This document shows, in pieces, positions 14,280 to 30,235 of a stretch of DNA of 48,618 bases. The stretch covers positions 1 through 48,618 of the forward strand of contig NZ_JADNQZ010000039.1 of assembly GCF_015709515.1 (NCBI RefSeq), given 5' to 3'. Position 1 is the stretch's first letter, and each line of letters opens with the position of its first letter. This DNA is from Methylocystis sp. H62 (GTDB lineage: Bacteria; Pseudomonadota; Alphaproteobacteria; Rhizobiales; Beijerinckiaceae). Under the pieces are notes generated by a model. That model was given only the letters and a program-made list of their open reading frames with translations. It was not told where the DNA came from and ran no database searches. Position numbers and translations under genes: made by a program.

Positions 14280-14310
14280 GCGGAGGCGCTATGAGTTTTA
14301 GCGCCTCCGC
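14280..14310. other. Perfect 12-bp inverted repeat (hairpin)
   Basis: GCGGAGGCGCTA (14280-14291), loop TGAGTTT, TAGCGCCTCCGC (14299-14310). The stem is perfect and GC-rich. It lies between the two ECF-like promoter copies and has no following T-run on the plus strand. It could end transcripts from copy A or form the 3' end of a small RNA. Confidence 0.6.
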
Positions 14311-14439
14311 AGCCCGTTTACGAAGTAATGAGAGCCTATCCAGCGCTTGTGTTGTCGCAGGATGTTTTAGAGCTGACCGTACTCTGCCGCTCGACGTGCT
14401 CGGAAGCTTTCTCTTTTCCCCCAAAAAAATCTCGTGCAA

Positions 14440-14483
14440 CGGGAACGCAGCGCGAAAGGGTCGCATCGAATATACGGGGCCGC
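14440..14483 (+). promoter_or_regulatory. ECF-type promoter-like element, copy B
   Basis: GGGAAC (14441-14446), 15 nt, CGCATCGAA (14462-14470), 67 nt before the ATG of the secreted protein gene. It is very similar to copy A over about 43 bp. It is placed to drive the cluster that contains the ECF sigma gene, which suggests autoregulation. Confidence 0.6.
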
Positions 14484-14537
14484 ATCGAGTCGATCACACC
14501 GGCCGCTACGCAAACTGATCGACCAAGGAGAACCGTC

Positions 14538-15230
14538 ATGACACGCGTGCAGATGTTCCACCGGGCCGTTAATCGCCGCCTCGCCCTTGCGGGCTTCGCC
14601 GCCGCACTTATGGCTACTCCCGTTTTCCGCCCGACCGCCGCCTATTCCGTTAACACCTCGCACACCGAAGCCGCGCAGATCATTCGCAGCCCGAGCGGAC
14701 TCGCGCTCAATAATGCGATGCGTGAATTGTGGGCTCAGCATATGGAATGGACCTATGCGGCAGTCACGGCCTTGGCCAACGGCTCGCCATCTTTCGACGC
14801 CACCGCAGCGCGGCTGATGCAGAACCAGGCCGATATCGGCGACGCTATCAAGCCCTTCTATGGCGATGCAGCTGGTAACGCGCTCACCAAGCTGCTTCAG
14901 GAGCATATCGGCGCAGCCGTCGAGGTCGTGAAAGCCGCCAAGGCCGGCGACAAGCCGGCCACCGACAAGGCCGTCGCAGCCGCCTACGCAAACGCGCAGG
15001 AAATTGCCGATTTTCTCGCCAAGGCGAACAAGAACTGGCCGCAAACCACGGTACGCGACATGCTCAAGGGGCATATCGACACAACTGTGGTCTACGCCAC
15101 GGGGCTTTTGCAGGGCAAATATGCCGACGGCATCGCCGAATATGGAAAGGCCGAAGCTCATATGATGATGCTGGCCGATGCCCTGACCAACGGTTTGATC
15201 GCCGCCTTCCCAACGAAGTTCGAGAATTAG
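14538..15230 (+). CDS. Secreted helical protein of unknown function
   Basis: The start at 14538 is set by AAGGAG 9 nt upstream; an open frame runs further 5' but through the promoter region. The 230-aa product has a basic N-terminus with a hydrophobic core ([16 protein letters not shown]) that looks like an export signal. A mostly helical mature domain follows, with [38 protein letters not shown] and [20 protein letters not shown]. This pattern with several His and Met residues resembles small periplasmic helical-bundle proteins found beside ECF sigma genes; I cannot name the family. It probably forms an operon with the 41-aa ORF and the sigma gene. Confidence 0.8.
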
Positions 15231-15422: not shown

Positions 15423-15450
15423 CCTACCTGTTCAATGAATGGAGGCGAAA

Positions 15451-16164
15451 ATGCAATCACTTCAGCGTCAGGCGGCAAATAGCTTCTCGAAAACCACGCC
15501 GGAGGCAGAGCTGATCTCGCGCGCCGCTGACGGTGACGGAGTGGCGTTCGAAGCCATCATGCGACGGCACAACCAGCTTCTGTTCCGTACGGCGCGTAGC
15601 ATCGTGCACAATGATGCGGAGGCGGAGGATGTCGTCCAGGACGCCTATCTGCGGGCGTGGCGCGCGCTTGGAAACTATCGCGCCGAGAGCAAGCTCTCTA
15701 CCTGGCTTGTGCGGATCACGACCAATGAAGCGCTCGGCCGCTTGCGGCGAAAGAGTGCCCAGATCATTCCTTTGGAAGCTGCCATGACGCCCCATGAATC
15801 TGAAGCCCAGACAGCGCTGAACGATGAGCCTGAGCGTAGCCCAGAACAATCGATGATGCGGGTTCAGATGCGCAAGCTCTTGGAGGCGCGCATCGACCTT
15901 CTGCCGGAGGCCTTCCGGACGGTGTTCATGCTGCGCGCGATCGAGGAGATGAGCGTCGAAGAAATCGCCGAGGCGCTGGAGATCCCCGAGGCGACGGTGC
16001 GTACGCGCTTCTTCCGAGCTCGCAGCCTGTTGCGCGAAAGCCTTGCCCAGGAGATGGACGCGGGCTTAAGCGACGTTTTCGCCTTCGCCGGCGAGCGGTG
16101 CGACCGCATCGTGACCGGTGTCCTCGAACGCTGTAAAGCGGAAGGGCTGGCCAGCGAAGAGTAG
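15451..16164 (+). CDS. ECF RNA polymerase sigma factor
   Basis: The ATG at 15451 follows GGAGGCGAAA, so it is preferred over the ATG at 15439. The 237-aa protein has sigma region 2 (NQLLFRTARSIVHNDAEAED then VVQDAYLRAWRAL; YRAESKLSTWLVRITTNEAL) and region 4 (LPEAFRTVFMLRAIEEMSVE, then EIAEALEIPEATVRTRFFRA). A C-terminal extension (FAFAGERCDRIVTGVLERC) with two Cys is typical of one alphaproteobacterial ECF subgroup. No zinc-finger anti-sigma gene follows. The duplicated promoter elements upstream of the cluster suggest self-control. Confidence 0.93.
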   Translation: MQSLQRQAANSFSKTTPEAELISRAADGDGVAFEAIMRRHNQLLFRTARSIVHNDAEAEDVVQDAYLRAWRALGNYRAESKLSTWLVRITTNEALGRLRRKSAQIIPLEAAMTPHESEAQTALNDEPERSPEQSMMRVQMRKLLEARIDLLPEAFRTVFMLRAIEEMSVEEIAEALEIPEATVRTRFFRARSLLRESLAQEMDAGLSDVFAFAGERCDRIVTGVLERCKAEGLASEE

Positions 16165-16293: not shown

Positions 16294-16606
16294 CTAAAAA
16301 CCGGGCGCGCCAACCGTCGCTAGGGGATTTGCGCTGGCGTTGGCAAAAATGGGACCGAGGAATCCGTCCAGATTGAAGGGAAGGGGCGTCCTGCTTATCA
16401 CGCGTTCCCAAAAGGCGCGCAGGCGCTCGACGCGCTTTTCCAGATGATTGCCGCAAATGATCACGACGTTGATCGCGCCGATCGAAATGCCGGCGAGCCC
16501 CTTCGGACAATATCCCCGCCGCGAGCGCCCCGAACGGGCCCGCCTAATAGGCGCCGAGCGCGCCGCCGCCTTGAAAAACCAGCGCGACAACTTCTTTATT
16601 CGTCAT
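16294..16606 (-). pseudogene. Patatin-like phospholipase N-terminal relic
   Basis: From the ATG at 16606 the frame reads MTNKEVVALVFQGGGALGAY, the oxyanion-hole glycine motif of patatin-like acyl hydrolases, then hits TAG where relatives have a glutamine codon. Another frame continues with LAGISIGAINVVIICGN, the GxSxG nucleophile elbow, and RVERLRAFWERV. It then ends at GAPGF with a stop. Amber codon, frameshift and loss of about two thirds of the protein make it dead. Confidence 0.75.
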
Positions 16607-16869
16607 GCGCTCATGCGCCGCCGCTCCGCATCTTCCGCGCGCGTCGCCCCTGGATCCTCCCATTCCACCGTCGGCGTGTTGCGGCCTTTGCCTTCCACAA
16701 CTCTGAGCCTATTTTGGACAACGTCGGAAAAGCGCTCCAGATCCGAATTGACCCTTTTTTCTGAACCAGCCTGCCGAGGCAGTGGGAAATCGGATATTCG
16801 GCATCTATGTGGCGATGATGGCTCTCTCGGGCCATCTCGACTCGTCCGTGCCGGCCTGCGCGATCGCCG

Positions 16870-17453
16870 ACGTGCCGACCGCTTCCGCGACATGTGGACA
16901 GGGCGGATCTGCGCGCTGGCGCCGAGACGATGGATCCATTCGACTACTTCAAATTCCGTTACTACGAGAAGTGGCTCAGCGGCATCCCCATTCCTCGTCG
17001 ACAAGGGATACCTGCGCGAGGACGAATTAGCCTCGCGGACAAGCGAACTGCGTGGCGAAGCGGCCAGGCCGGACGGCGCTCGGCCAGGGGGACCCGATCG
17101 GGCTGAAGCCATCGACGAGCAGATCATCGCATATCTACGCAGCGGCGACAGCCCGCGGCGCGACGTCGCGCATCCGAAGTTCGCCGTCGGGCAGCGGGTC
17201 CGGATCGCAAATGTCCCAGCTGGCGCGCACACTCGCCTGCCCGGCTATCTGCGGGGGCGGAGCGGCACGGTGGCGCAGGTGCTCGAAGGCGACTACGCCT
17301 ACTTCTGGCACACTGGCGACGGCATCGGCGATCCAATGCCCGTCTACATCGTCGAGTTCACGCCGACCGAATTGTGGGGTCCCGCGCGCGGAACCCGGCG
17401 CGCAGACGCTTTACGCCGAACTGTTCGAGGCATACTTGGAGGAACCTGCATGA
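16870..17453 (+). pseudogene. Nitrile hydratase beta subunit, multiply frameshifted
   Basis: Fragments in order: MDPFDYFKFRYYEKWLSGI, then in another frame FLVDKGYLREDELASR, IIAYLRSGDSPRRDV, FAVGQRVRIANVPAGAHTRL and PGYLRGRSGTV, VYIVEFTPTELWG, then in a third frame AEPGAQTLYAELFEAYLEEP. These match the C-terminal half of nitrile hydratase beta (SH3-like barrel). The last frame ends in TGA overlapping the alpha ATG (ATGA). Beta-before-alpha order is the one seen in several nitrile hydratases. At least two frameshifts make it non-functional unless they are sequence errors. Confidence 0.8.
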
Positions 17454-18069
17454 GCGGCCAGTTCAAGTATCCGCAGGACCGCGAGAAGTCCAGCGCGGCC
17501 AAAGTCGCTGCGCTGAAATCGCTTCTGATCGAAAACGGCGTCATCACGCCCCAGACCGTCGATAAGGTGCTGGCCTACTTCGAATCGGAGATGACGCCGC
17601 TCAACGGCAAGAAGATCGTCGTGCGGGCGTGGACCGACGCGGGCTTCTTGGCCCGGCTGCTGGCCGACACCCCGGCCGCAATTGCCGAACTCGACCTGCC
17701 CGAGGGAATGGCCGGCGCCGAGGCGAGCACCTGCGGGCGGTCGCCAACGCGCCCGGGGTGCACAATCTGATCATCTGCTCGCTCTGCTCGTGCTTTCCAT
17801 GGCCGGTGCTGGGGTTACCGCCGTACTGGTACAAGGATCCGGTATTTCGCGCCCGCGCGGCCCGCGAGCCGCGGAAAGTGCTCGCCGAGGTTGGCGTCCA
17901 CCTGCCCGAGGAAACGGAGATCGGGGTGTGGGACAGCAGCGGGACGGCGCGGTGGTTCGTAATTCCTGAAAGGCCAGCAGCGACAGAGGATTTTACTGAG
18001 GCGCAGCTGATGGAGCTCGTGACGACCGAGTCGATGATGGGCGTCGCGCTGGCCGGAGCGCCATCATGA
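17450..18069 (+). pseudogene. nthA: Nitrile hydratase alpha subunit with one 1-nt frameshift
   Basis: From ATG 17450 the frame gives SSAAKVAALKSLLIENGVIT and VVRAWTDAGFLARLLADTPA. Near 17721 one G appears to be missing and the reading continues in another frame: GEHLRAVANAPGVHNLIICS, then LCSCFPWPVLGLPPYWYKDP and ETEIGVWDSSGTARWFVIPE. The metal-binding CSLCSC motif is intact; its serine at the second position is the form usual for Fe-type enzymes. Except for this single deletion it would be a full-length subunit (~206 aa). It overlaps its neighbours by ATGA on both sides, a coupled operon. Confidence 0.85.
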
Positions 18070-18359
18070 GGTTGCACGGATCCTGCACCACTGATCAGGG
18101 AGCGCCGCGGTTTGACCACGAGTGGCAGTGACGCGAGTTCGGCTTGGCCATCGCGTTATCGAATTCGGCCACTATCGCTCAGCTGCCCGCGGCGGTTCGC
18201 GGAAGAAGTCGTCGATATCTATATCGTCGCGGTCACAAGGGCGAAAAACCCCAGCGCAGCCCACACCCGTGGCGCGCGACGCTTTCCCTGCAACGCCTTC
18301 GCGATCTGCGGGGAATCCGCGTAGAAGAAGGAATGGTGTCGCAAGAGAAGGCCTATTGA
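18066..18359 (+). pseudogene. Nitrile hydratase accessory (activator) protein relic
   Basis: The ATG at 18066 overlaps the alpha stop. The frame reads GAPRFDHEWQ, then TGA at 18129-18131, then REFGLAIALSNS in the same frame. This resembles the N-terminus of the small beta-like accessory proteins (P14K/nitrile hydratase activator). Further pieces lie in other frames (RFAEEVVDIY) and near the end (WRATLSLQRLRDL, EEGMVSQEKAY). It is the third member of a decayed beta-alpha-accessory operon. Confidence 0.55.
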
Positions 18360-20144: not shown

Positions 20145-22451
20145 TCACGCCGCACGCTTCGCCGGTCCCGCCTCCAGTTCCCTGTCCTCCTGCTCCACTT
20201 CATGAGGCTGGCGGCGCGGCCGGAGCCACAGGCTGACAACGAACCAGGCGAAGGCCAATGCGCCTATCGAGAAGACCGTGTCGCCCGGCACGCGCATCCA
20301 TACCAAAAGATCGACGATCGGCTGCTGCATGAACTGCTCAGAGCGGGCGTACCAATAACCTTCATTGATCGCGGCAAGGAGTTGCAGCGTGCCGAGCGGC
20401 AGGAGCGTGAACAACGCCATCATCGCCAGCCCCACGTTGAAGCACCAGAAGCTGATGCTGAGGATCTTCTCGTTCCAGACGAGTTCGGGCATCATTCCGC
20501 GCAGGCAGAACAACACGAGGCCGATGCCGAGCATCCCATAGACGCCGAACAGCGCCGTGTGGCCGTGCAGCGGTGTCAGGTTGAGCCCCTGCATGTAATA
20601 GAGCGAGAGCGGCGGGTTGATCAGGAAACCGAACAGACCGGCTCCCACGAGATTCCAGAAGGAGACAGCGATGAAGAACAGCACGGGCCATTTATAGCGC
20701 TGCATCCATGGCGTGGCGCCGCAAAACCGCCAATGCTCATAGGCCTCGAAGCCGATGTAGGCGAGCGGCACGACTTCCAGCGCGGAGAAACTGGCGCCAA
20801 GCGCCAGCACCGACGTCGGAGTGCCGGCGAAATAGAGATGATGCAGTGTGCCGATCACGCCGCCGGCCATAAAGACAATCGTCGCGAACAGCACCGCCGA
20901 AGTTGCCGGCTTGACTGCGACCAGGCCGAGGCGGGTGAACAGGAAGGCGACGACGGCGGTGGCGAACACCTCGAAAAACCCTTCGACCCACAAGTGCACC
21001 AGCCACCACCGCCAATACTCGACCATCGACAGATGCGTATGCTCGTTCCACATCAGCCCCGCGCCGTAGAACAGGCCGATCGCAACGGTCGAGAGGAAGA
21101 AAAGAGCGACGATGGAGCGTGACTCATTTTTTACCAGCAGCGCCGGCCACAAGGCGCGGCCGACGAGGATGAGCCACAGCAGCAGTCCGATAAAGAGGAA
21201 CCACTGCCAGAAACGCCCGATATCGGCATACTCCCAGCCCTGATGCCCGAACCAGAAATTGTGTTCCAATCCCAGCCGTTGCATGACCGCGAGCCATTGG
21301 CCCGCGAAGGCGCCGACGACAATGATCAGCAAGCAGATCCAGAGCACATTCACCCCGAGCGCCTGGAACTTCGGCTCGTAGCCGGAAATCGCCGGCGCCA
21401 TGTAGAGCCCAGTGCCCAGCCAGGCCGTGGCGATCCACAGCACGGCCAATTGCGTGTGCCAGGTGCGGGTGATCGAATAGGGAAGGATCTCCGCCATCGG
21501 GTAGCCGTAAAACAGCTGCCCCTCGACCTGGTAATGGGCGCTTATGGCGCCAAACAGGATCTGGACGAGAAACAGGGCAAGAAGCACCCAAAAATACTTG
21601 GCGGTCGCGCGCATGGACGGCGTGACCCTCACGTTGCGCATCGGATCACGCGCGGGCACGTCGCACGTCTCGCCGCCGCGCGCATGACTGACGGCGCGGT
21701 GCCAGCCGAGAAGCCCGATGCCGGCAAGCAGAAAAACCACGCTGAACGCAGACCAGATGAAGGTGGTTGCAGGCGGGCGGTTGTCGATCAACGGCTAGCT
21801 CGGCCAGTTGTTGGTGTAGGTGACGTGGCTTCCCGGCCGCTCCGTGGTCGCGGCCCACGCGGTCCACCAGAAGAAGGCGCATAGCGCCCGTCGATGCTCG
21901 GCGTCGGCGACAGTGCCGTTCTTCATTGCGTAGTTCTCGCGAAGCTCCGCGCTGCGCGGATCGTCGCCGAATAGGCTCTCATAGTGGCTAGAGACGAGGA
22001 CGATCGCCTGAGCCCGCTCCTCAGACACAGTGATTGTCCCAGTTTTCGGATCGAACGTGTTTCGCCTCATCATCGGGCGCAGCCGTCCCCGCAGAGAACT
22101 CTGCTGCTCCTCGCTGAGATCAGCGTAGCGGCCGGCCGCGAACTCGCGGCGCGCCCAGGCGTCCAGGATGGCGACGAGTTCCCGGTGCTGCCAGTCGGCG
22201 GTCCAGTCCGGCGCGACGTAGCCGCCATGGCCCCAGACGGAGCCGAGTTGCATACCGCCGATCGACTGCCATACCTGCCGGCCGCGCTGGATGTCGTCGA
22301 TTGTATAGACCGTTCGGCCTCTTTCCGTAACGACGCGCTCCGGCAATGGCGGCGCCTTGACGCTGATTTCGCGGCCAATGAGCAAAAGCACGGCGAAGGA
22401 AAGCGCCAACAGGGCGACGAGCGAGATCCAGAGTTTACGCGCGCTTTCCAC
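20145..22451 (-). pseudogene. norZ: Quinol-dependent nitric oxide reductase (qNOR) split by one amber codon
   Basis: GTG 22451 follows AGGAGG at good spacing. Codons run in one frame to 20145 apart from a TAG at 21795-21797. The 5' part (218 aa) has one membrane helix and the periplasmic domain with RGRQVWQSIGGMQLGSVWGH. The 3' part (~548 aa) is the catalytic NorB-like core with HTQLAVLWIATAWLG, WNEHTHLSMVEYW, GTLHHLYFAGTP and PLHGHTALFGVYG carrying haem and Fe ligands. Together they are the normal qNOR length. Relatives have Glu where TAG stands (NNWPSE-PL), so a single GAG-to-TAG change explains it. It would reduce NO to N2O with quinol. Either it is a recent pseudogene or two polypeptides are made. 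Confidence 0.9.
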
Positions 22452-22946: not shown

Positions 22947-23552
22947 CTAGGCTCGGCGCACCATGCCGAGGAATTCCTCTCGTGAGCGGGCGTCGTCGCG
23001 GATTACGCCGAGTAACCGGCTAGTGGTCAATGTGGATCCGAGCGTGTTCACGCCACGCAAGGTCATGCAACTGTGTTCGGCCTCGACGACCACTCCTACT
23101 CCTTGCGGCTCGAGAATTTCCTGGATGGCTTCGGCGATCTCAGCGGTTAGCTTCTCCTGAATCTGTAATCGACGCGCGAATCCGTGCACGACCCGCGCCA
23201 GTTTGGAGATTCCCACGACCCTGTTTGTCGGCAGGTAACCGACATGCGCGCGTCCGATCACCGGCAGCATGTGATGTTCGCAAAAAGTAACGACGCGGAT
23301 GTTCTTCAATACGACCAGCTCGTCATAACCGCCCACTTCTTCGAACGTGCGCTTGAGATATTCGCGAGGATCGGCGGCGTAGCCAGCGAACAATTCGCGA
23401 TAAGAACGCGCCACCCGCTCAGGCGTATCGATCAAACCTTCGCGGTTCGGATCGTCGCCTGCCCATTCGATAAGAACCCGCACAGCCGCTTCAGCTTCAG
23501 CCTGGGTACGCTTCGACCTTCGGACTCCGCTAAAGTTGTTGTCCAAACCCAT
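22947..23552 (-). CDS. folE: GTP cyclohydrolase I
   Basis: The start at 23552 ([12 protein letters not shown]) gives 201 aa, the usual length; the open frame further upstream does not look coding. It has the substrate and zinc motifs: [37 protein letters not shown] (zinc Cys and His), [19 protein letters not shown] and [15 protein letters not shown] with the second zinc Cys. It converts GTP to dihydroneopterin triphosphate for folate or pterin synthesis. A second, broken copy of its 3' end lies at 38.1 kb. An accessory folE in such a region may be a backup enzyme or serve a pterin-requiring pathway. Confidence 0.93.
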
Positions 23553-23693
23553 TAAACGACTCGGGCCGTCACGAAATCGATCTGCATGGGCCGAAACTAG
23601 ATATTCAGTTTGTTGGCTTGACGCTCGATCATTCGCGCATCTCCTAACATTATTCGGCGGGTGCTGCGTCTGTTGCGGTAACAACTGATCACC

Positions 23694-23726
23694 CCGATGG
23701 AAGCCCTGCTTGGGGCTATCCATCGG
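23694..23726 (-). terminator. Strong hairpin downstream of copper-propeller gene
   Basis: CCGATGGA (23694-23701) pairs perfectly with TCCATCGG (23719-23726); inside, AGCCC pairs with GGGCT around a TGCTTG loop, with one bulged base. It begins 18 bp after the end of the copper-propeller gene, so it probably ends that operon. No long T-run follows. Confidence 0.6.
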
Positions 23727-23743
23727 AGCTGACTTGCAGTGGC

Positions 23744-25585
23744 TCAGTTGCCGCGTTGCTCCTTGTTCAAAAGCTTGAGCCATCCCTCGACTTCGGCGCT
23801 CAACTTGCCCGTTCCCGCGAGTTTTAGCGTGGGCGCCAGCATGCCACGCTCGACGATCGGCAAGGGCAGCACGCCCTGTCCGCCCATGCCGTTATGCGCG
23901 GTGATCTGACCGTCCTTCGAATCCGCGAGCAGAATGCGGCCTACGACTTCGAGCTTATCCATGTCGATAACGATCAAGTCATTGGCGAATTTGCTCGCCA
24001 CATAGGCGTAATAGCCGCCCCCCTTCTTATGTCCGAAGTTGACGCCGTGGCAGCCTGCTTCGCAGGGCAGGCTTTTCACCACCTTGTCGGTCTTCACGTC
24101 GACAATCGTGACTGTGGCGCTCAATGTGTTCGCCGTGACGACGTATTTGCCGTCCGGGCTGACCGGGGTCTGGATCGGAAGCAGGCCATAAGCCTCGCCC
24201 TTGTGCGCGCCGCTGATCGGGTCGTAATCGGCAGCGAGGTCGATGTCTTTGACCTTCTTCTTGTTGTCAATGTCGATGACCGTCAATGAGGAGAGCATGG
24301 CGGGGGGCGTGCCGAGCAGATTGGCGGCATAGCCCTTATGGTTCATGTCGCTCCAGATCGCGATCGGAATAACGCCGCCGGTCGGAATTTCCGTCGCTTT
24401 CTCGGTCGCGAGATCGACGACGGTAACGCTTCCCGCCAGCGCGTTCGGCGTCATCATATATTTGCCGTCGTCGGTGATGTGATGGCCGTGGGGGCCGGAA
24501 TGCGGGCCGACATTAATGTTGCCCATCGCCGAAGGGAATTCGCCAGGCGACAGTTTCGCCACGCGGTCCTCGCCATTGATGGCGACATAGAGCATGCCGT
24601 TTACCGGGCTCGTCATCACATGAGACGGATTTTGTCCAACGACCTGCGTGTTAAGAACCTTTCCGCTCTCGCGGTCGAAGGTGGTCAGCCGTTTGTCGAA
24701 CCATTCCGTCTGATAAATGTATTTATATGTCGGATCGGGCCACATATTGTGAGGGTTGTTCATATTCTGCTCGACGCCCTTGACTTTTTTCTTGAGCGTC
24801 CAATCCGCCGCGTCGATTTGCGTCGCCGTTCCGAACTTCGTCTTGCCGCTCACCCCTTCAAACTGCGTGTTGACCCAGACCTCGCCGACGCCGGGCGTCT
24901 TGGGCGTCAGCAGCGTGTTCGGCGCCGAAAGGCTGAGCGCGCTCAGATTGATCTGCGCGCCGCCGAGATTGAGTCCGAGATCGGGAAGCTTCACCTCCCA
25001 CTTCGGCTGCCGATAGTCGCGCCATAGCGCCGGCGTCGTGGCGACGAAGAAGGTGCGGAGCAGCTTCTTGGCGATGTCGCTTGTCGTCGGAACTTTGGCG
25101 CCGGTCACGAGCTGCAATTCGCCGCCGATGTCCAGCCCTTCCGTCTTCGGATCGTCGACGACAACGGCGCCGAACATGTAGGGATGGACCTTGCAAGTGA
25201 AGACATAGAGCCCCGGTTTGTCGAAGGTCTGCGTAACGCTGGCGTTCGACGGCTTCTCCTGATCGACCGGGAATTTGTCCGCGCCAGGCTGCCAGGCAAG
25301 ACTGGTGATGGTGTGATCCGTATTGGTGTCCGTCATCTTGATGAGCACCGCCTCGCCAGGCTTCACCACAACGAGCGAGCCGCCGCTCTTGGGATCCTTG
25401 AACCATTTGCCGGGCTCGTCGGTCATCTCCAGCACGGCCGACGGTAGGACCCCGGGGCGGCTGATGATGACGTCGTCAGATTTCACGGCGTCTTTCGCCT
25501 GCGCCGCCAGCGGCGCAGCAAGCGAGGTCGTCGCCACGGCCAACGTCAGAAAGGATACGCGGTTCATGATTGTTGCGTGGTTCAT
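23744..25585 (-). CDS. Amicyanin-like cupredoxin fused to YVTN beta-propeller, periplasmic
   Basis: ATG 25585 is chosen for its GGGGGAG 8 nt upstream, giving 613 aa. Residues 1-30 are a signal peptide ([19 protein letters not shown]). Residues 36-50 hold [15 protein letters not shown], shared with the 29.7-kb membrane protein. Residues about 65-145 form a cupredoxin with type 1 copper ligands H91, C131, H134 and M137 (CKVHPYM, the short amicyanin loop). From about 260 on there are YVTN-type blades ([60 protein letters not shown]). NosZ has propeller then cupredoxin with CuA; here the order is reversed and the copper site mononuclear. It follows the oxidase by 28 nt, so it may exchange electrons with it. 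Confidence 0.88.
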
Positions 25586-25613: not shown

Positions 25614-26591
25614 TCATTCGATGACGCGGAAATCACCCATCATTCCAGACTGCATGTGTTGGATAACGTGACAGTGGTAGTGCCAGTCGCCGGGGCCAAC
25701 ACCCTCGCCGGCCTTCACGATGAACGAGGTGCGGCTGATTGGACCGATGTTGACGGTGTCAACGCCGGCGGTTGCTCCGGGCTCGATCCAGCGATGCGCA
25801 TGGAGATGGAAAGTATGGAACGCGGTGCCAATCCCCATGACGTGGAAGCGAACCTTTTCGCCCAGGCGCGCGCCGACGGTCGGATTAGTCCATAACGGAA
25901 TCTCCTTGCCGCCCTCGATGATATGATTGAGCTCCTGACCCCAAAAGGTCGTTTCATGCATCCAGATGATGAATTCGCGTTTCACATCGGCAAGATCAAC
26001 GTCGACGATCTTGCCGTCGATGAGCGCAGGAACCTTCCCGCTCGCCGGATTGATGATGAGCGTACCGAACAGCCCCTTGTCCTCGGCTCCGAGCATCGGA
26101 TTGCCGAATGCATGATCGTGATAGGCCCACGTGCCTGCCGTTCCAGGCGCGGCCGTCCATTTGTATGTGTAAGGTTTGTCTGGGAACGCAGCTTCGTCGG
26201 CGACGCCATTCAAAACCTTCATGGTGCCATCGCTGTCGATCTTGAAGTGCACGCCGTGGACATGGATGCTGACCGGCAACGCCGAGTCGGCGATGCCATG
26301 TTGAAGAGTCACCTCGGCGACGTCCCCCTCTTTCATGACGAGCGTGGGACCAGGGATGGTAGGACCGCTCGCATACCGATCCGTAAGGTCGCTTTCTTTT
26401 CCCGTGGAAGATTTGACCTTGTGACTGACCATCTCATAGGCCAGCTGACCCGACGGCATTGCGCTTGCTTTGAGCGTGATCAAATGTTGGTCGGCGGCAG
26501 AGGCTGCGCTAGCGGCGAGAAGCGCGGCTGGCCACATGAGCAAAAACGCGAACGAACGTGAAATCCCCAACTGCGCCCAGGTTCTTAGCAT
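25614..26591 (-). CDS. Two-domain multicopper oxidase (small-laccase type)
   Basis: ATG 26591 (GGAG 9 nt upstream) gives 325 aa with a signal peptide (FAFLLMWPAALLAASAASA). All copper ligands are visible: H110/H112 and H158/H160 in domain 1, and H259, H262/H264, H306, C307, H308, H312 and M317 in domain 2 (HTFHLHAHRW; WHYHCHVIQHMQSGMMGDF). The type 1 copper is in the second domain only, as in type-B two-domain laccases, not NirK, whose type 1 site is in domain 1. Such enzymes work as trimers reducing O2 to water. The substrate is unknown; a phenol, Cu(I) or the neighbouring cupredoxin are options. An ECF-like promoter lies upstream. Confidence 0.9.
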   Translation of the reverse strand: MLRTWAQLGISRSFAFLLMWPAALLAASAASAADQHLITLKASAMPSGQLAYEMVSHKVKSSTGKESDLTDRYASGPTIPGPTLVMKEGDVAEVTLQHGIADSALPVSIHVHGVHFKIDSDGTMKVLNGVADEAAFPDKPYTYKWTAAPGTAGTWAYHDHAFGNPMLGAEDKGLFGTLIINPASGKVPALIDGKIVDVDLADVKREFIIWMHETTFWGQELNHIIEGGKEIPLWTNPTVGARLGEKVRFHVMGIGTAFHTFHLHAHRWIEPGATAGVDTVNIGPISRTSFIVKAGEGVGPGDWHYHCHVIQHMQSGMMGDFRVIE

Positions 26592-26678
26592 CGCATCACA
26601 CTCCTTCGAGCGGAGAACCGGGGACAATGCCGGCGATCGATCCGATCGCGCGCGCCAACCAGTTCGATCCGATACGAC

Positions 26679-26708
26679 TTAGATGCGACGGAACGCTGAG
26701 GTCTTACC
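26679..26708 (-). promoter_or_regulatory. ECF-type promoter-like element before oxidase operon
   Basis: On the minus strand GGTAAG (26708-26703), 15 nt, CGCATCTAA (26687-26679). Spacing and the second half match copy A at 14.15 kb exactly. It overlaps the last codons of the anti-sigma gene and leaves a leader of about 80 nt to the oxidase ATG, so the oxidase operon can be transcribed apart from the sigma genes. Confidence 0.6.
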
Positions 26709-26964
26709 TCGAAGGAAAAGTTTTTTCTGCGTTCACGAGTCTCAGAAGGGCGAGATAAACCTCTTCGCACTCGGGGCACTGATGCATATGGTGTTTAACC
26801 TCGGGCAATAAGGCTCCGGCGTCCTGACCGGATGCCTCAATGTCGACGTAACGTGGAAGTTCATCAAAATATTCCGTGCACAGCATCTCCTCTCCGCTCT
26901 TAGCGGCGAAGACGGTGTCAATGAGGCGGGTAAAGTCTTTGTGTTTCATGTCGGGTTCCGGCAC
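26704..26964 (-). CDS. Zinc-finger anti-sigma factor (soluble, 86 aa)
   Basis: A GTG start at 26964 lies 6 bp after the sigma stop; an ATG five codons later is an alternative. The product has an acidic helical N-terminus and HHMHQCPECEEVYLALLRLV. The HxxxCxxC arrangement is typical of ZAS-domain anti-sigma factors. There is no membrane helix, so it would act in the cytoplasm, perhaps as a redox or metal sensor on its zinc cysteines. Position directly after the ECF gene supports the role. Confidence 0.8.
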   Translation of the reverse strand: MPEPDMKHKDFTRLIDTVFAAKSGEEMLCTEYFDELPRYVDIEASGQDAGALLPEVKHHMHQCPECEEVYLALLRLVNAEKTFPSR

Positions 26965-26970
26965 GACTGA

Positions 26971-27675
26971 CTATAAGATGCGTTGAACGGAGGAAGTCTT
27001 ACCCTCCGAATGGAGATGGGTTCCCGATTTTGGCTCGTCAAACACGGCAATAAGATCTTTGTGCGTCACGCCTTCTTCGAGCAAAGCCTGCTTGAGCCGT
27101 TTACGCGCATCGTGGATGAGTTTGTAAAGATTATTCCGATTAGAACCCAACCATTCGGCGACCTCGTCCAAGGGCATCCCCTGAAAAGCGTGAGCGACAA
27201 GTGCGGTCCGTTGCAAGGGAGTAAGCTTGGCGCCGATAAGTCGCGCAAGTAGAGTCCACGCTTCGCGCTGCTGTAGACTGCGCTCCGGCCCCGGTTCTTG
27301 AATCGGCCAAGCCGGCAAAGTCTGTCCAAGCTGAGCGCGCTCGATCGTAGCTTCTCGCCAGCGACGGCGGCGCAGCTCTCCGAGCACGACTCTGATTGCG
27401 ATTGAATAAGCCCAAGTCATAAAGCGGCTTTCGCCGCGAAAGTCTCCAAGTTTTGATTGTATAATGAGAATGGCCTCTTGTGCGCAGTCTTCAGCAAGGT
27501 GCTGCGCTTCATCTGAACGCGTTGATTCTTGCGTGGCGTAGCCTTTCGCCAAATAGGCCCGAATTGCCGCAAGCAGTCGTGCTCGAAGGTCCGCAAGCGC
27601 CAACTGTTGGTCTCGACCGCTCTCCTGAAGCGCCGTCAGCCACTCTGCATTGGATCGTTGCATAATTTCCATCAC
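26971..27675 (-). CDS. ECF RNA polymerase sigma factor
   Basis: This protein of up to 234 aa has region 2 (EDCAQEAILIIQSKLGDFRG, then ESRFMTWAYSIAIRVVLGEL) and region 4 (LTPLQRTALVAHAFQGMPLD, then EVAEWLGSNRNNLYKLIHDA). The N-terminus begins GTG-ATG at 27675 with no strong ribosome site; the ATG at 27663 is another candidate. A weak ECF-like element ends only about 13 nt upstream, so the transcript may be nearly leaderless. The product is followed by the anti-sigma, oxidase and copper-propeller genes, which are probably its targets. Confidence 0.9.
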   Translation of the reverse strand: MMEIMQRSNAEWLTALQESGRDQQLALADLRARLLAAIRAYLAKGYATQESTRSDEAQHLAEDCAQEAILIIQSKLGDFRGESRFMTWAYSIAIRVVLGELRRRRWREATIERAQLGQTLPAWPIQEPGPERSLQQREAWTLLARLIGAKLTPLQRTALVAHAFQGMPLDEVAEWLGSNRNNLYKLIHDARKRLKQALLEEGVTHKDLIAVFDEPKSGTHLHSEGKTSSVQRIL

Positions 27676-27687
27676 GGCTCAGGAGAA

Positions 27688-27717
27688 ATTAACGCGGGTG
27701 CGTGACAAACGCGTACC
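27688..27717 (-). promoter_or_regulatory. Weak ECF-type promoter-like element before sigma gene
   Basis: On the minus strand GGTACG (27717-27712), 15 nt, CGCGTTAAT (27696-27688). The spacing equals the other copies, while the second half matches less well. It would allow autoregulation. The rest of 27718-27959 shows no gene. Confidence 0.35.
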
Positions 27718-27959
27718 GCAGCCAAATGTAGCAACACTTTAGGGAAATGCCATCCTCATGAACGGCTGGGATTTTTTGCGGCGCAACTAAGTCTCTGATC
27801 CGCTGCGGGCAGGGAAAGCTGCTAAACGGCGCCCGCGGCATGGACGATAGTCCTTGGAATTTCGAAGCGCCGTTATAGCTAAAGAGAACAAGACTGATTC
27901 GGGCAGTCTGGCGCCATTGAATTGCGAGCGTCTCCCCCGTTTCGCAAAAAAGATGCTAT

Positions 27960-28937
27960 TCAACGCCGGACCGCAACGCCTTCAGGCGCTGTCGGAACGA
28001 AGATTGTCTTCACAATCTCATCCGTCTGCGTGTCGAAGATCGAGAGGCTGTTGGCTCCCGTATTGGTGATGAGGAGCCAGCGACCGTCGCCGGCGAAGCC
28101 GACGCCGTGACTACCCGCGTCCGGCGCTATGGAGATCGTTTTGATGACTTTGTTCACGGCAAGGTCGATTTTCTGCACCGTGCCCGCCCCGTCATTAGCG
28201 ACATAAGCGAAGGTCTGATTTGGCGCGACCGTGACTTGCACCGGTCCCGCATCGGTCTCGATATCCGCGATCCGCCGAAGGCTTTCGGCGTCGATCACGG
28301 CGACGAGATTGGCGTTGTGACAGGCGACATAAACGCGCTTGCCGTCCTTGGTCGCGCCTTGGCCCAGCGGCCCTGTTCCGACAGCGATCGTCGCGAGCGC
28401 CTGGCGTTTTGCGCGTGAGAGCACCGTCACGTCGCCGCCGCCGAAATTGGAGACGAAAAGCCTGTCGCCTGAAGCGAGCGCGAAATGCGGCATCGCGCCG
28501 ACCTTGACGACGCCAAGCGATGCACCCGCCTGCGCGTCAAAAATTTCGACCCGGTCGTCGAACTCGTTCGTAACGTATGCTTCCTTGCCATCGGCGCTGA
28601 AAAAGATGTGTCGCGGACCCTTTCCTGTTGGCAGCGCTTTGATCACGCTGTTTGCTTGCGTATCGATGATGGATAAGGTCCCCGCGTTGTTGTTCGTGAC
28701 CCAAGCTTGTTTCTGATCGGGACGCAGCGTGACGTTATGATTGTGGATGCCGACTGGGATTTTCTTCTTCAGTGCGCCTGATGCGAGATCTATAACGGAA
28801 ACGACGCCGCCGAACCACGAGGTCACATAGGCGGTCCCCTTGATGGGCGTCGCAGGTTCGGCGCGCAGCTGCGGCGCGCCTATTGCAAGCGCCAGGGCGC
28901 TCGTTAAGAGAACAATGCGAATGATCGCGGAAACCAA
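27960..28937 (-). CDS. Secreted YVTN-family beta-propeller protein
   Basis: The start is a TTG at 28935-28937, since AAAGGAG lies 7-8 nt upstream, giving 325 aa. A signal peptide (IVLLTSALALAIGAPQLRA) is followed by about seven repeats of the kind AYVTSWFGGVVSVIDLASGA, AWVTNNNAGTLSIIDTQANS, AYVTNEFDDRVEIFDAQAGA and VYVACHNANLVAVIDAESLR. It is a pure propeller without a copper domain. It resembles the propeller half of the 23.7-kb protein and may be its partner or a simpler paralogue. Ligand and activity are unknown. Confidence 0.85.
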   Translation of the reverse strand: MVSAIIRIVLLTSALALAIGAPQLRAEPATPIKGTAYVTSWFGGVVSVIDLASGALKKKIPVGIHNHNVTLRPDQKQAWVTNNNAGTLSIIDTQANSVIKALPTGKGPRHIFFSADGKEAYVTNEFDDRVEIFDAQAGASLGVVKVGAMPHFALASGDRLFVSNFGGGDVTVLSRAKRQALATIAVGTGPLGQGATKDGKRVYVACHNANLVAVIDAESLRRIADIETDAGPVQVTVAPNQTFAYVANDGAGTVQKIDLAVNKVIKTISIAPDAGSHGVGFAGDGRWLLITNTGANSLSIFDTQTDEIVKTIFVPTAPEGVAVRR

Positions 28938-29583
28938 GTGCTTTCTCCTTTTGATTTTGGATGGATTCGAAGCGCCCGCCGGCCTGCGTTCAAGGCGAGG
29001 CGCAATGAGAAAGCCGCCGCGTGCTGCGCGCGCAGCTTTGCTGGCGCGACAACAGACGCTCCGGGGCACGCCGCCAAATGTAGAGCCGAGCGGTCAAGTC
29101 CATAGACAGACGTCGATATAAAGACGGCATCCGGAATCCTCGGCTTTGAAGAGCCGTCCGCGATGCTTGGGCATACCGCCTGGAATAGGGATCGCCACCC
29201 TCGCAGGCGCGATGATCCACCAATTTCCTTCGTTGTCAACGAAAGCTGCGACACGCAAGCCGCTCGGTGCGGTAATAGCAAGCAACGCCCGCTATAAAAG
29301 GGTGACGTGATTGGCGCGTGTGAGTGAACGTCGCGGCTGAGAACGGATTGCCTTTCCCGCGTGACTGTCGATGCTAAGGGGGCACCACACCGCTCGCTTC
29401 CGCAATAGCGCGAGCGAGGCTTGCGGTCCTCCGAAATCGATACCTTGGAATTCATCCTCGCGCACGGCGTTGGTCGAACGAACGCTCGCTTGGCTCAATC
29501 GCCGCTAAGGCTCTCCAGAGATCGGAGGCATCCATCGACGCATCGCCCTGGATAATCGAGATGTGAATTTGAGTCCGACTCTA
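28938..29583. other. Long intergenic region; no firm gene
   Basis: About 650 bp. A minus-strand ORF at 29094-29285 (TTG start, 63 aa, with VAAFVDNEGNWWIIAPARVA) has protein-like composition but no ribosome site and no family I recognise. It could be a gene fragment. Nothing else is supported. Confidence 0.4.
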
Positions 29584-29613
29584 AGTAAGATTTCGTCTTT
29601 TCATCACATCTAA
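29584..29613 (+). promoter_or_regulatory. ECF-type promoter-like element before 29.7-kb membrane protein
   Basis: AGTAAG (29584-29589), 15 nt, CACATCTAA (29605-29613), 73 nt before ATG 29687. Compared with the oxidase promoter, both halves differ by one base and the spacing is the same. Confidence 0.55.
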
Positions 29614-29686: not shown

Positions 29687-30235
29687 ATGAACCACGTTTT
29701 CTACCTACTTGCGCTCGCCACTTTCCTACTCACGCCTCCGCCGGCGGCAAACGCCATTGAACTACCTTGGCGATCCGACGACGTGTTCCTTAGCCGCCCC
29801 GGGGTTCCGCCTTCCGCAAATCAAGTGAACGGAACTGGCGCGAAAAGTGTTGAAAATGGCGGAATGCAAGTCGGCGTGTTTCGGTGCGGAGAGCTTGTCG
29901 GAGATGATGCACAAAATAGCGCTGCAGAAACAAAAAATGAAAGCAACCGCACTTCTGGAGCCGATTTATATGCCTGGGCGAAGAATCCCCCTGCGCAAAT
30001 GATCGTGCTATCTTTGTTTTTTGCCTTTCTAGGCCTCATCATTGACATTGGAGCGATGCCGCCCTTCCAAGGGTTGATGCCCGAAGAAGCGCTCGCAAAC
30101 TACAGGACGACGTGGATAGCGATCATGATCGTAGCCATACTTGGAGGAGCGCTACTGTTGCCTGTCACAACCAGTATCATACGGTATTCGATGACTCGTC
30201 TGGATCACCGAGACGTTCCGCAAGGCGCCATGTGA
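29687..30235 (+). CDS. Membrane protein sharing SRPGV motif with copper-propeller protein
   Basis: This 182-aa protein starts with a signal peptide (MNHVFYLLALATFLLTPPPA) and then carries SDDVFLSRPGVPPSA at residues 30-44, identical at 12 of 15 positions to residues 36-50 of the copper-propeller protein. A variable hydrophilic part with one Cys and several Asn follows, then two membrane helices (MIVLSLFFAFLGLIIDIGAM; WIAIMIVAILGGALLLPVTT). I know no family for it. The shared motif and a similar promoter suggest that it works with the copper proteins, perhaps as a membrane anchor. Confidence 0.75.
   Translation: MNHVFYLLALATFLLTPPPAANAIELPWRSDDVFLSRPGVPPSANQVNGTGAKSVENGGMQVGVFRCGELVGDDAQNSAAETKNESNRTSGADLYAWAKNPPAQMIVLSLFFAFLGLIIDIGAMPPFQGLMPEEALANYRTTWIAIMIVAILGGALLLPVTTSIIRYSMTRLDHRDVPQGAM

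Follow-up and report, generated by a model that had tools for sequence, protein, structure and literature searches.

The window analyzed in this study is a 48,618-nucleotide stretch of DNA from Methylocystis sp. H62 (NZ_JADNQZ010000039.1) and represents the entire contig C39 of a 4.54-Mb genome. Since 20 kb of it match two plasmids of Methylocystis rosea (214 and 219 kb) at 100% and 99.9% identity, the window is most likely methanotroph plasmid DNA. It contains two genes for extracytoplasmic function (ECF) sigma factors and several two-part, promoter-like boxes (Table 1). The product of the 26971 gene possesses sigma regions 2 and 4 (PF04542, 34.0 bits; PF08281, 34.7 bits; both above the cutoffs) and belongs to the ECF sigma-70 family by TIGR02937 (80.7 bits; cutoff 42.9), and the 15439 gene encodes a member of the PRK11922 type (NF008888, 303.1 bits; curated cutoff 204). 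A sequence-only reading of the window had assigned five sites to one shared motif. All five are present, each as a 6-mer and a 9-mer separated by 15 nt, but they are not one motif: they comprise two classes, whose −35 halves (GGTAAG in class A and GGGAAC in class B) each track their own sigma family across the genomes examined, and one chance match. The class-A consensus is GGTAAGA-N14-CGCATCTAA (sites 26708−, 29584+, and 27003−), and that of class B is GGGAAC-N15-CGCATCKAA (sites 14149 and 14441). The box at 27003–26974 on the minus strand was absent from the sequence-only reading and was found in a loose-pattern scan of the genome.

Table 1 Genes and boxes in the window.
Feature	Position	Strand	Remarks
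ECF sigma factor, class A	26971..27675	minus	start codon uncertain, probably the ATG at 27663
Anti-sigma factor, C plus HX3CX2C zinc-finger type	26704..26949	minus	
Multicopper oxidase	25614..26594	minus	start codon inferred
Beta-propeller protein, N-terminal part weakly cupredoxin-like	23744..25567	minus	start codon inferred
GTP cyclohydrolase I (FolE)	22947..23783	minus	recurrent neighbor of the class-A sigma family
Small membrane protein	29687..30235	plus	N-terminus resembles that of the propeller protein
Helical protein, signal-like N-terminus, no Pfam family	14538..15230	plus	upstream of second ECF gene
ECF sigma factor, class B (PRK11922 type)	15439..16164	plus	
Class-A box GGTAAG-N15-CGCATCTAA	26679..26708	minus	precedes multicopper oxidase operon; rank 1 in matrix scan
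Class-A box GGTAAG-N15-CGCATCTTA	26974..27003	minus	in 3' end of sigma gene, 54 nt before anti-sigma start; rank 3
Class-A box AGTAAG-N15-CACATCTAA	29584..29613	plus	precedes membrane-protein gene; rank 2
Class-B box GGGAAC-N15-CGCATCTAA	14149..14178	plus	rank 1 by class-B matrix
Class-B box GGGAAC-N15-CGCATCGAA	14441..14470	plus	precedes 14538 gene and second ECF gene; rank 2 by class-B matrix
GGTACG-N15-CGCGTTAAT	27688..27717	minus	fifth site of the sequence-only reading; rejected as chance

Relatives of the class-A sigma factor (E ≤ 1e-20) were detected in 15 of 101 genomes, all from the genus Methylocystis, at 26 loci. The order sigma gene, box, anti-sigma gene, box, target is kept in all 26. 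The first box lies 51–56 nt before the anti-sigma match and carries GGTAAG in every locus, and no box with up to two mismatches was found within the 1500 nt (823 nt in L046) that precede any of the 26 sigma genes. The second box precedes a multicopper oxidase in nine loci, all nine with a class-A-type box at the oxidase target, and a truncated hemoglobin in 17. A 2Fe-2S/FAD reductase was matched in 15 of these 17 hemoglobin-type loci; L054 and L055 showed a partial hemoglobin match and no reductase match. The truncated hemoglobin of L065 is a member of PF01152 (62.0 bits; gathering score 21). Frames resembling 5-aminolevulinate synthase by eye were seen near hemoglobin-type clusters at L076 1583–2869 (contig C9 of genome G025) and L072 5354–6802 (G031); in G025 the frame lies between a class-A box and the sigma gene.

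Near-identical copies aside, the membrane gene at 29687 has one full-length relative in the genus (59–65% identity), in genome G004. In that genome, it is preceded by additional oxidase and anti-sigma genes (a second copy of each); no class-A sigma gene accompanies them, and AGTAAG-N15-CGCATCTAA lies between the second anti-sigma gene and the oxidase gene. The 29584 box and the membrane gene of the window look like the remainder of a G004-like copy. At L230 10156–11913 in G004, a transposase-like frame (by eye) occupies the place where a sigma gene would precede the second anti-sigma gene. The N-termini of the membrane protein (29687–29900) and the propeller protein (25343–25567) match at 49% over 72 residues, with a weak E-value of 7e-5.

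The window was scanned with a class-A matrix built from 16 distinct combinations of −35 half, spacer length, and −10 half (26 distinct strings from 21 loci). The training set contained nothing from the window's contig or its near-identical copies L031–L035, and included the second copy in the same genome (contig C44). The sites 26708−, 29584+, and 27003− ranked first to third with 26.0, 22.5, and 20.9 bits, followed by a fourth at 10.0 bits; the highest score in 20 Markov-randomized windows was 18.1 bits. The other sites of the sequence-only reading scored 0.6 (27717−), 12.9 (14149+), and 7.6 bits (14441+). A class-B matrix with hand-set gap weights, derived from eight boxes in the vicinity of genes related to the 15439 sigma factor, put 14149 first, 14441 second, and 26708 third. 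Based on both matrices and on the family-specific placement of the −35 halves, one common motif was rejected in favor of two classes. The matrix ranking and the conservation support the view that the boxes resemble promoters of the ECF type and belong with the two ECF sigma factors, and the proposed connection between the oxidase/cupredoxin-propeller operon and the 29.7-kb membrane gene persists as a predicted link through one box class (26708, 29584). Site 27717 was dropped, also as a candidate for autoregulation of the sigma gene: besides its score of 0.6 bits, it is preserved only in the near-identical copies L031–L035 and not in the diverged oxidase-type loci L036, L037, L046, and L047.

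Of five diverged loci with a relative of the 15439 sigma factor, four have boxes of the form GGGAACC...GCATCYA around the sigma gene, and no [AG]GTAAG box was found in any of the five. The pattern GGGAACCTTTN{9,12}GCATCYAA had six matches in 39 Methylocystis genomes, all within about 1.1 kb of a class-B sigma gene, and GGGAACN{14,16}CGCATCKAATA had nine, all in the five genomes with a window-type cluster; the control was zero in both cases. What is directly observed are the box sequences, their conservation, and the pairing of each box class with one sigma family. We recognized no regulon for a PRK11922-type sigma factor in the literature searched; the boxes of the member studied here read GGGAAC...GCATCYA. 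Some 100 nt past the 14149 box there is a 12-bp hairpin (14280–14312; about −26 kcal/mol), which is kept in genome G028; the box may drive a short untranslated RNA. An Rfam search of the window returned nothing at gathering score. In plasmid NZ_CP034088, PLSDB predicts the tetracycline-resistance gene otr(A) at the equivalent of about 14291–14518 of the window, which looks like a spurious call of a short open frame across the class-B promoter region. Fragments reading like pieces of nitrile hydratase in several frames, perhaps decayed genes, were seen by eye at 16448–18120.

In the whole-genome motif search suggested by the sequence-only reading, the exact form GGNAAS-N15-CGCATCTAA has two matches in the 4.54-Mb genome, both in the window (reversed control pattern, 0). 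The loose form GGNAA-N17-GCATCTAA with up to two mismatches is not enriched, with 162 matches versus 201 for the reversed pattern. Because the loose pattern is no commoner than its control, similarity to the consensus alone proves nothing, and it is conservation that separates likely real sites from chance. Genome-wide consensus counts were rejected as proof, since degenerate patterns do not exceed the reversed-pattern controls. In the same genome, GTAAGN{14,18}SRTCTAA has four matches (26708−, 29585+, one before the hemoglobin pair on C44, and one elsewhere on C35). Across the 39 genomes, GGTAAGN{14,18}SRTCTAA has 28, of which 23 coincide with locus boxes, two precede a sigma gene by less than 3 kb (one in G037 and one in G025, the latter in front of a small membrane protein), and three are elsewhere (C35 of G000, G002, and G027). 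Such a match is present in 13 of the 15 genomes with a class-A sigma factor versus 2 of the 24 without.

Relatives of the class-A sigma factor also occur beyond Methylocystis. A scan of 84,980 species genomes counted 326 relatives, of which 80 were kept, 63 of them (L115–L177) not of the Methylocystis kind. L128 was left out of the stop-codon count, as its stop was placed by the string itself. In 20 of the remaining 62 loci GTAAGA lies on the coding strand within 60 nt of the sigma stop (opposite strand, 0; about 0.7 expected), and in 12 of the 62 the stop codon TAA is inside GTAAGA. A PrkA kinase gene follows the anti-sigma gene in L131 (by eye) and L140 (Pfam); in L131 it is preceded by GGTAAG-N15-CGCATCTAA, with halves identical to 26708.

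Two genes of the window recur near these distant sigma genes. Relatives of the 14538 protein were found in 12 and FolE in seven of the 63 loci (two on the other strand). Upstream of the 14538-type genes, [AG]GTAAGA is present in seven of the 12 cases, one is unreadable (N), and there is none in L150, L155, L158, and L172. The 14538 protein itself had no Pfam match, and no family was common to more than three of 17 members at E ≤ 0.1; the family is predicted to be all-helical without a clear structural match, with rhodopsin rows within the helical-bundle background, and the best match to a solved sequence had E 0.21. A long conserved leader with complementary stretches separates the GTAAGA box from the 14538-type gene in three Chloroflexi loci (L122 7019–7231, L125 7023–7264, L135 6650–6895), and a comparable leader, less alike than these three, is found in Acidobacteria (L129 1643–1861). 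As an Rfam search of six relatives gave only tRNAs, the leader in L122, L125, L135, and L129 is no catalogued RNA.

The 14538 gene family, class-B-linked in the window, has class-A boxes in Chloroflexi, and in G024 the box of the hemoglobin-reductase pair is of class B. In L231, L232, and L233, such boxes are also found before a DUF4142 gene, after which comes a gene that looks cupredoxin-like by eye and had no Pfam match. Because target families are exchanged between the box classes, both sigma systems may serve related stresses. Two regulons with overlapping specificity, the alternative already offered by the sequence-only reading, appear to fit best, with the same −10, near-equal spacing, different −35 halves, and common target families. 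We consider it probable that two parallel ECF sigma regulons exist, with the class-A and class-B boxes assigned to separate sigma factors.

In the proposed circuit, the activity of the promoters, their assignment to sigma factors, the extent of the operons, the signal, and the behavior of the feedback are predictions from the genome sequences. The class-A sigma factor would start transcription at boxes of GGTAAGA, 14 nt, and CGCATCTAA. It would drive its own anti-sigma gene from the box inside the last sigma codons, the operon of oxidase, cupredoxin-propeller, and FolE, of which FolE is presumably co-transcribed with the oxidase, and the 29687 membrane-protein gene. Since no class-A box lies close upstream of the sigma gene, activation would raise the anti-sigma factor and the targets, not the sigma factor, and form a negative-feedback loop. 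This anti-sigma-only feedback is the novel part of our reading, and we give it an even chance of being a real circuit. The class-B sigma factor would use GGGAAC...CGCATCKAA boxes before the 14538 gene and before itself. Two parallel regulons that answer nitrosative or copper-linked stress are our best reading of the window. On the wider scale, a GGTAAGA-reading ECF sigma family would span Methylocystis, Chloroflexi, an Acidobacteria bin, and Actinobacteria. Its −35 half would be overprinted on the sigma end in Chloroflexi and Methylocystis, often on the stop codon, and direct expression of the anti-sigma factor and targets, not of the sigma factor; in the mostly actinobacterial branch the box would precede the sigma gene. 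A second sigma type would have reached the same −10 and nearly the same spacing and would trade targets, yielding a modular nitrosative-stress response that includes the uncharacterized helical family and FolE. For this composite picture, we regard the arguments in favor and against as balanced.

The class-A anti-sigma factor suggests how such a response could be triggered. Among 14 sequences of its family, C24, H54, and C58 are invariant and C61 is nearly so, which places the HX3CX2C motif with an upstream Cys, as in zinc-binding anti-sigma (ZAS) proteins. The zf-HC2 model matched six of the 14 at E ≤ 0.1, and the anti-sigma factor of the window was not among the Pfam matches. Streptomyces sigma-R/RsrA and other ZAS systems are alike in that a C...HX3CX2C anti-sigma factor is encoded right after the sigma gene. 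However, the protein of the window matches the RsrA model (TIGR03988) only weakly (20.3 bits; curated cutoff 62.5), and the Methylocystis anti-sigma gene differs in having its own box, with none found within 1.5 kb upstream of the sigma gene. The class-A promoter GGTAAGA/CGCATCTAA is presumably also different from the sigma-R promoter type. A thiol-reactive signal would probably strip the metal from the zinc-type anti-sigma factor and release the sigma factor. Zinc release on disulfide stress has been reported (PMC3961337).

The likeliest signals would be nitric oxide (NO) or related nitrogen species, possibly together with copper. Nitrogen oxides are favored because of the hemoglobin pair, the NnrS and SirB genes, and NO-reductase neighbors, although our confidence in them as the signal goes no further than the midpoint. 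The island of the window holds NnrS, SirB, and a quinol NO reductase gene that is now interrupted, and an NO-reductase relative adjoins the sigma gene in one Chloroflexi locus (L125). Truncated hemoglobin and 2Fe-2S/FAD reductase of the NO-detoxification type were matched at the hemoglobin-type class-A targets (PF01152 and reductase domains), and by their families the pair would act on NO. In contrast to known hemoglobin systems of this type, control here would be exerted by an ECF sigma factor via the GGTAAGA box. Methylocystis sp. SC2 likewise carries nitrogen-oxide genes on plasmids, namely NO and N2O reductases; the excerpted text describing them makes no mention of ECF sigma control, and the island of the window is a different gene set (PMC3794950). 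The NO reductase gene of the window (20145–22451, minus strand) has an in-frame TAG near 21795, where the relative in L060 has no stop; the incomplete gene table of the M. rosea GW6 plasmid has no gene entered at this position. The propeller protein of the 23744 gene is not a member of the lactonase-type N2O reductase model (62.4 bits; curated cutoff 700). In a literature search that covered few subscription journals, we recognized no paper on the class-A sigma family, on its GGTAAGA box, or on a promoter for an anti-sigma gene located within a sigma gene.

Several observations weigh against the proposed circuit. Reversed controls of the class-A pattern gave three matches in the same genome versus four, and 63 versus 28 over the 39 genomes; because the latter control exceeds the class-A matches, the class-A case rests on placement and not on match number. 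The class-A training set was chosen with the motif itself and includes orthologous loci (80–88% protein identity). The propeller gene at 27960–28937 lacks a high-scoring class-A box in the matrix scan of the window, and the spacer in the diverged class-B boxes is 14 nt versus 15 in the window. In G025 and G037, a class-A box lies 2.3–2.5 kb upstream of the sigma gene and points in the same direction, so that read-through into the sigma gene is possible. Among the non-Methylocystis loci, GTAAG is located upstream of the sigma gene in 23 of 31 in the mostly actinobacterial set (L147–L177), versus 4 of 31 within 400 nt in the mostly Chloroflexi set (L115–L146), none of the latter with a fitting −10 (by eye); the opposite-strand control gave nine loci among those with 400 nt upstream. 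For this reason, the feedback wiring seems to differ between the branches. Regarding the signal, proteins linked to copper and to nitrogen oxides are equally prominent, and the NO reductase of the window carries the stop mentioned above.

Of the alternatives, a class-A regulon with copper (its excess or redox state) as the signal, in place of nitrogen oxides, survives best and remains a tentative contender. The oxidase and the cupredoxin-like propeller are among the targets, a cupredoxin-like protein (by eye) follows a class-B box, and copper and heavy-metal efflux genes are located further along the same plasmid. However, the commonest target in the genus is the truncated hemoglobin (17 of 26 loci), a heme protein, and none of the high-scoring class-A boxes in the window belongs to the efflux genes.

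A single regulon, in which one sigma factor or both interchangeably read all boxes and the −35 difference is tolerated, appears unlikely. It would account for the identical −10 core and equal spacing in the window, for the exchange of target families, and for the third rank of 26708 by the class-B matrix. Against it, GGGAACCTTT boxes occur only in three genomes with diverged class-B sigma genes, a scan of the 26 class-A loci that also allowed GGNAAC gave only GGTAAG/AGTAAG boxes, and no [AG]GTAAG box was found in the five diverged class-B sigma loci. One AGTAAG...GCATCTAA match is located in G004 (L230 6706), 2.8 kb past its class-B sigma gene.

That the sigma-terminal box is no promoter but coding sequence, or belongs to the ribosome-binding region of the anti-sigma gene, is highly improbable. 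In each of the 22 distinct sigma genes (of 26) from Methylocystis, the box lies in frame and codes for Gly-Lys. Yet all 22 use GGT-AAG while the C-terminal tail is otherwise variable; elsewhere in these genes Gly is encoded by GGT in 10% of cases and Lys by AAG in 44%, which gives a usage-based probability of about 4% for this pair, although the conservation is drawn from related sequences. The −10 also changes frame between clades, its TCTAA being the in-frame sigma stop in L042, L043, L054, and L055 and out of frame in L041, L044, and L053. The same −35 coincides with the stop codon or directly follows it in other phyla, and the same sequence recurs before targets. Protein-level constraint was judged an unlikely cause given the fixed codon pair with its rare GGT, the frame shift of the −10, and the variable tail. 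Least probable of all is that the motif serves a DNA-binding regulator as its operator: the distance of about two helical turns between the half-sites would also suit a dimer, but the motif is not palindromic, is oriented toward the following genes, pairs with sigma/anti-sigma genes across phyla, and has halves that resemble ECF promoters in general.

If the two-regulon reading is true, it would provide a readable promoter code for a multi-phylum ECF family, whose regulon could be listed from sequence. The wiring would be unusual, with anti-sigma-only feedback fixed by the overlap of promoter and gene end, and this overlap could give fast, self-limiting pulses. Copper proteins, truncated hemoglobin, FolE, and an unknown helical family would be joined in one stress response of methanotrophs, organisms in which nitrogen oxides and copper both matter for methane oxidation.

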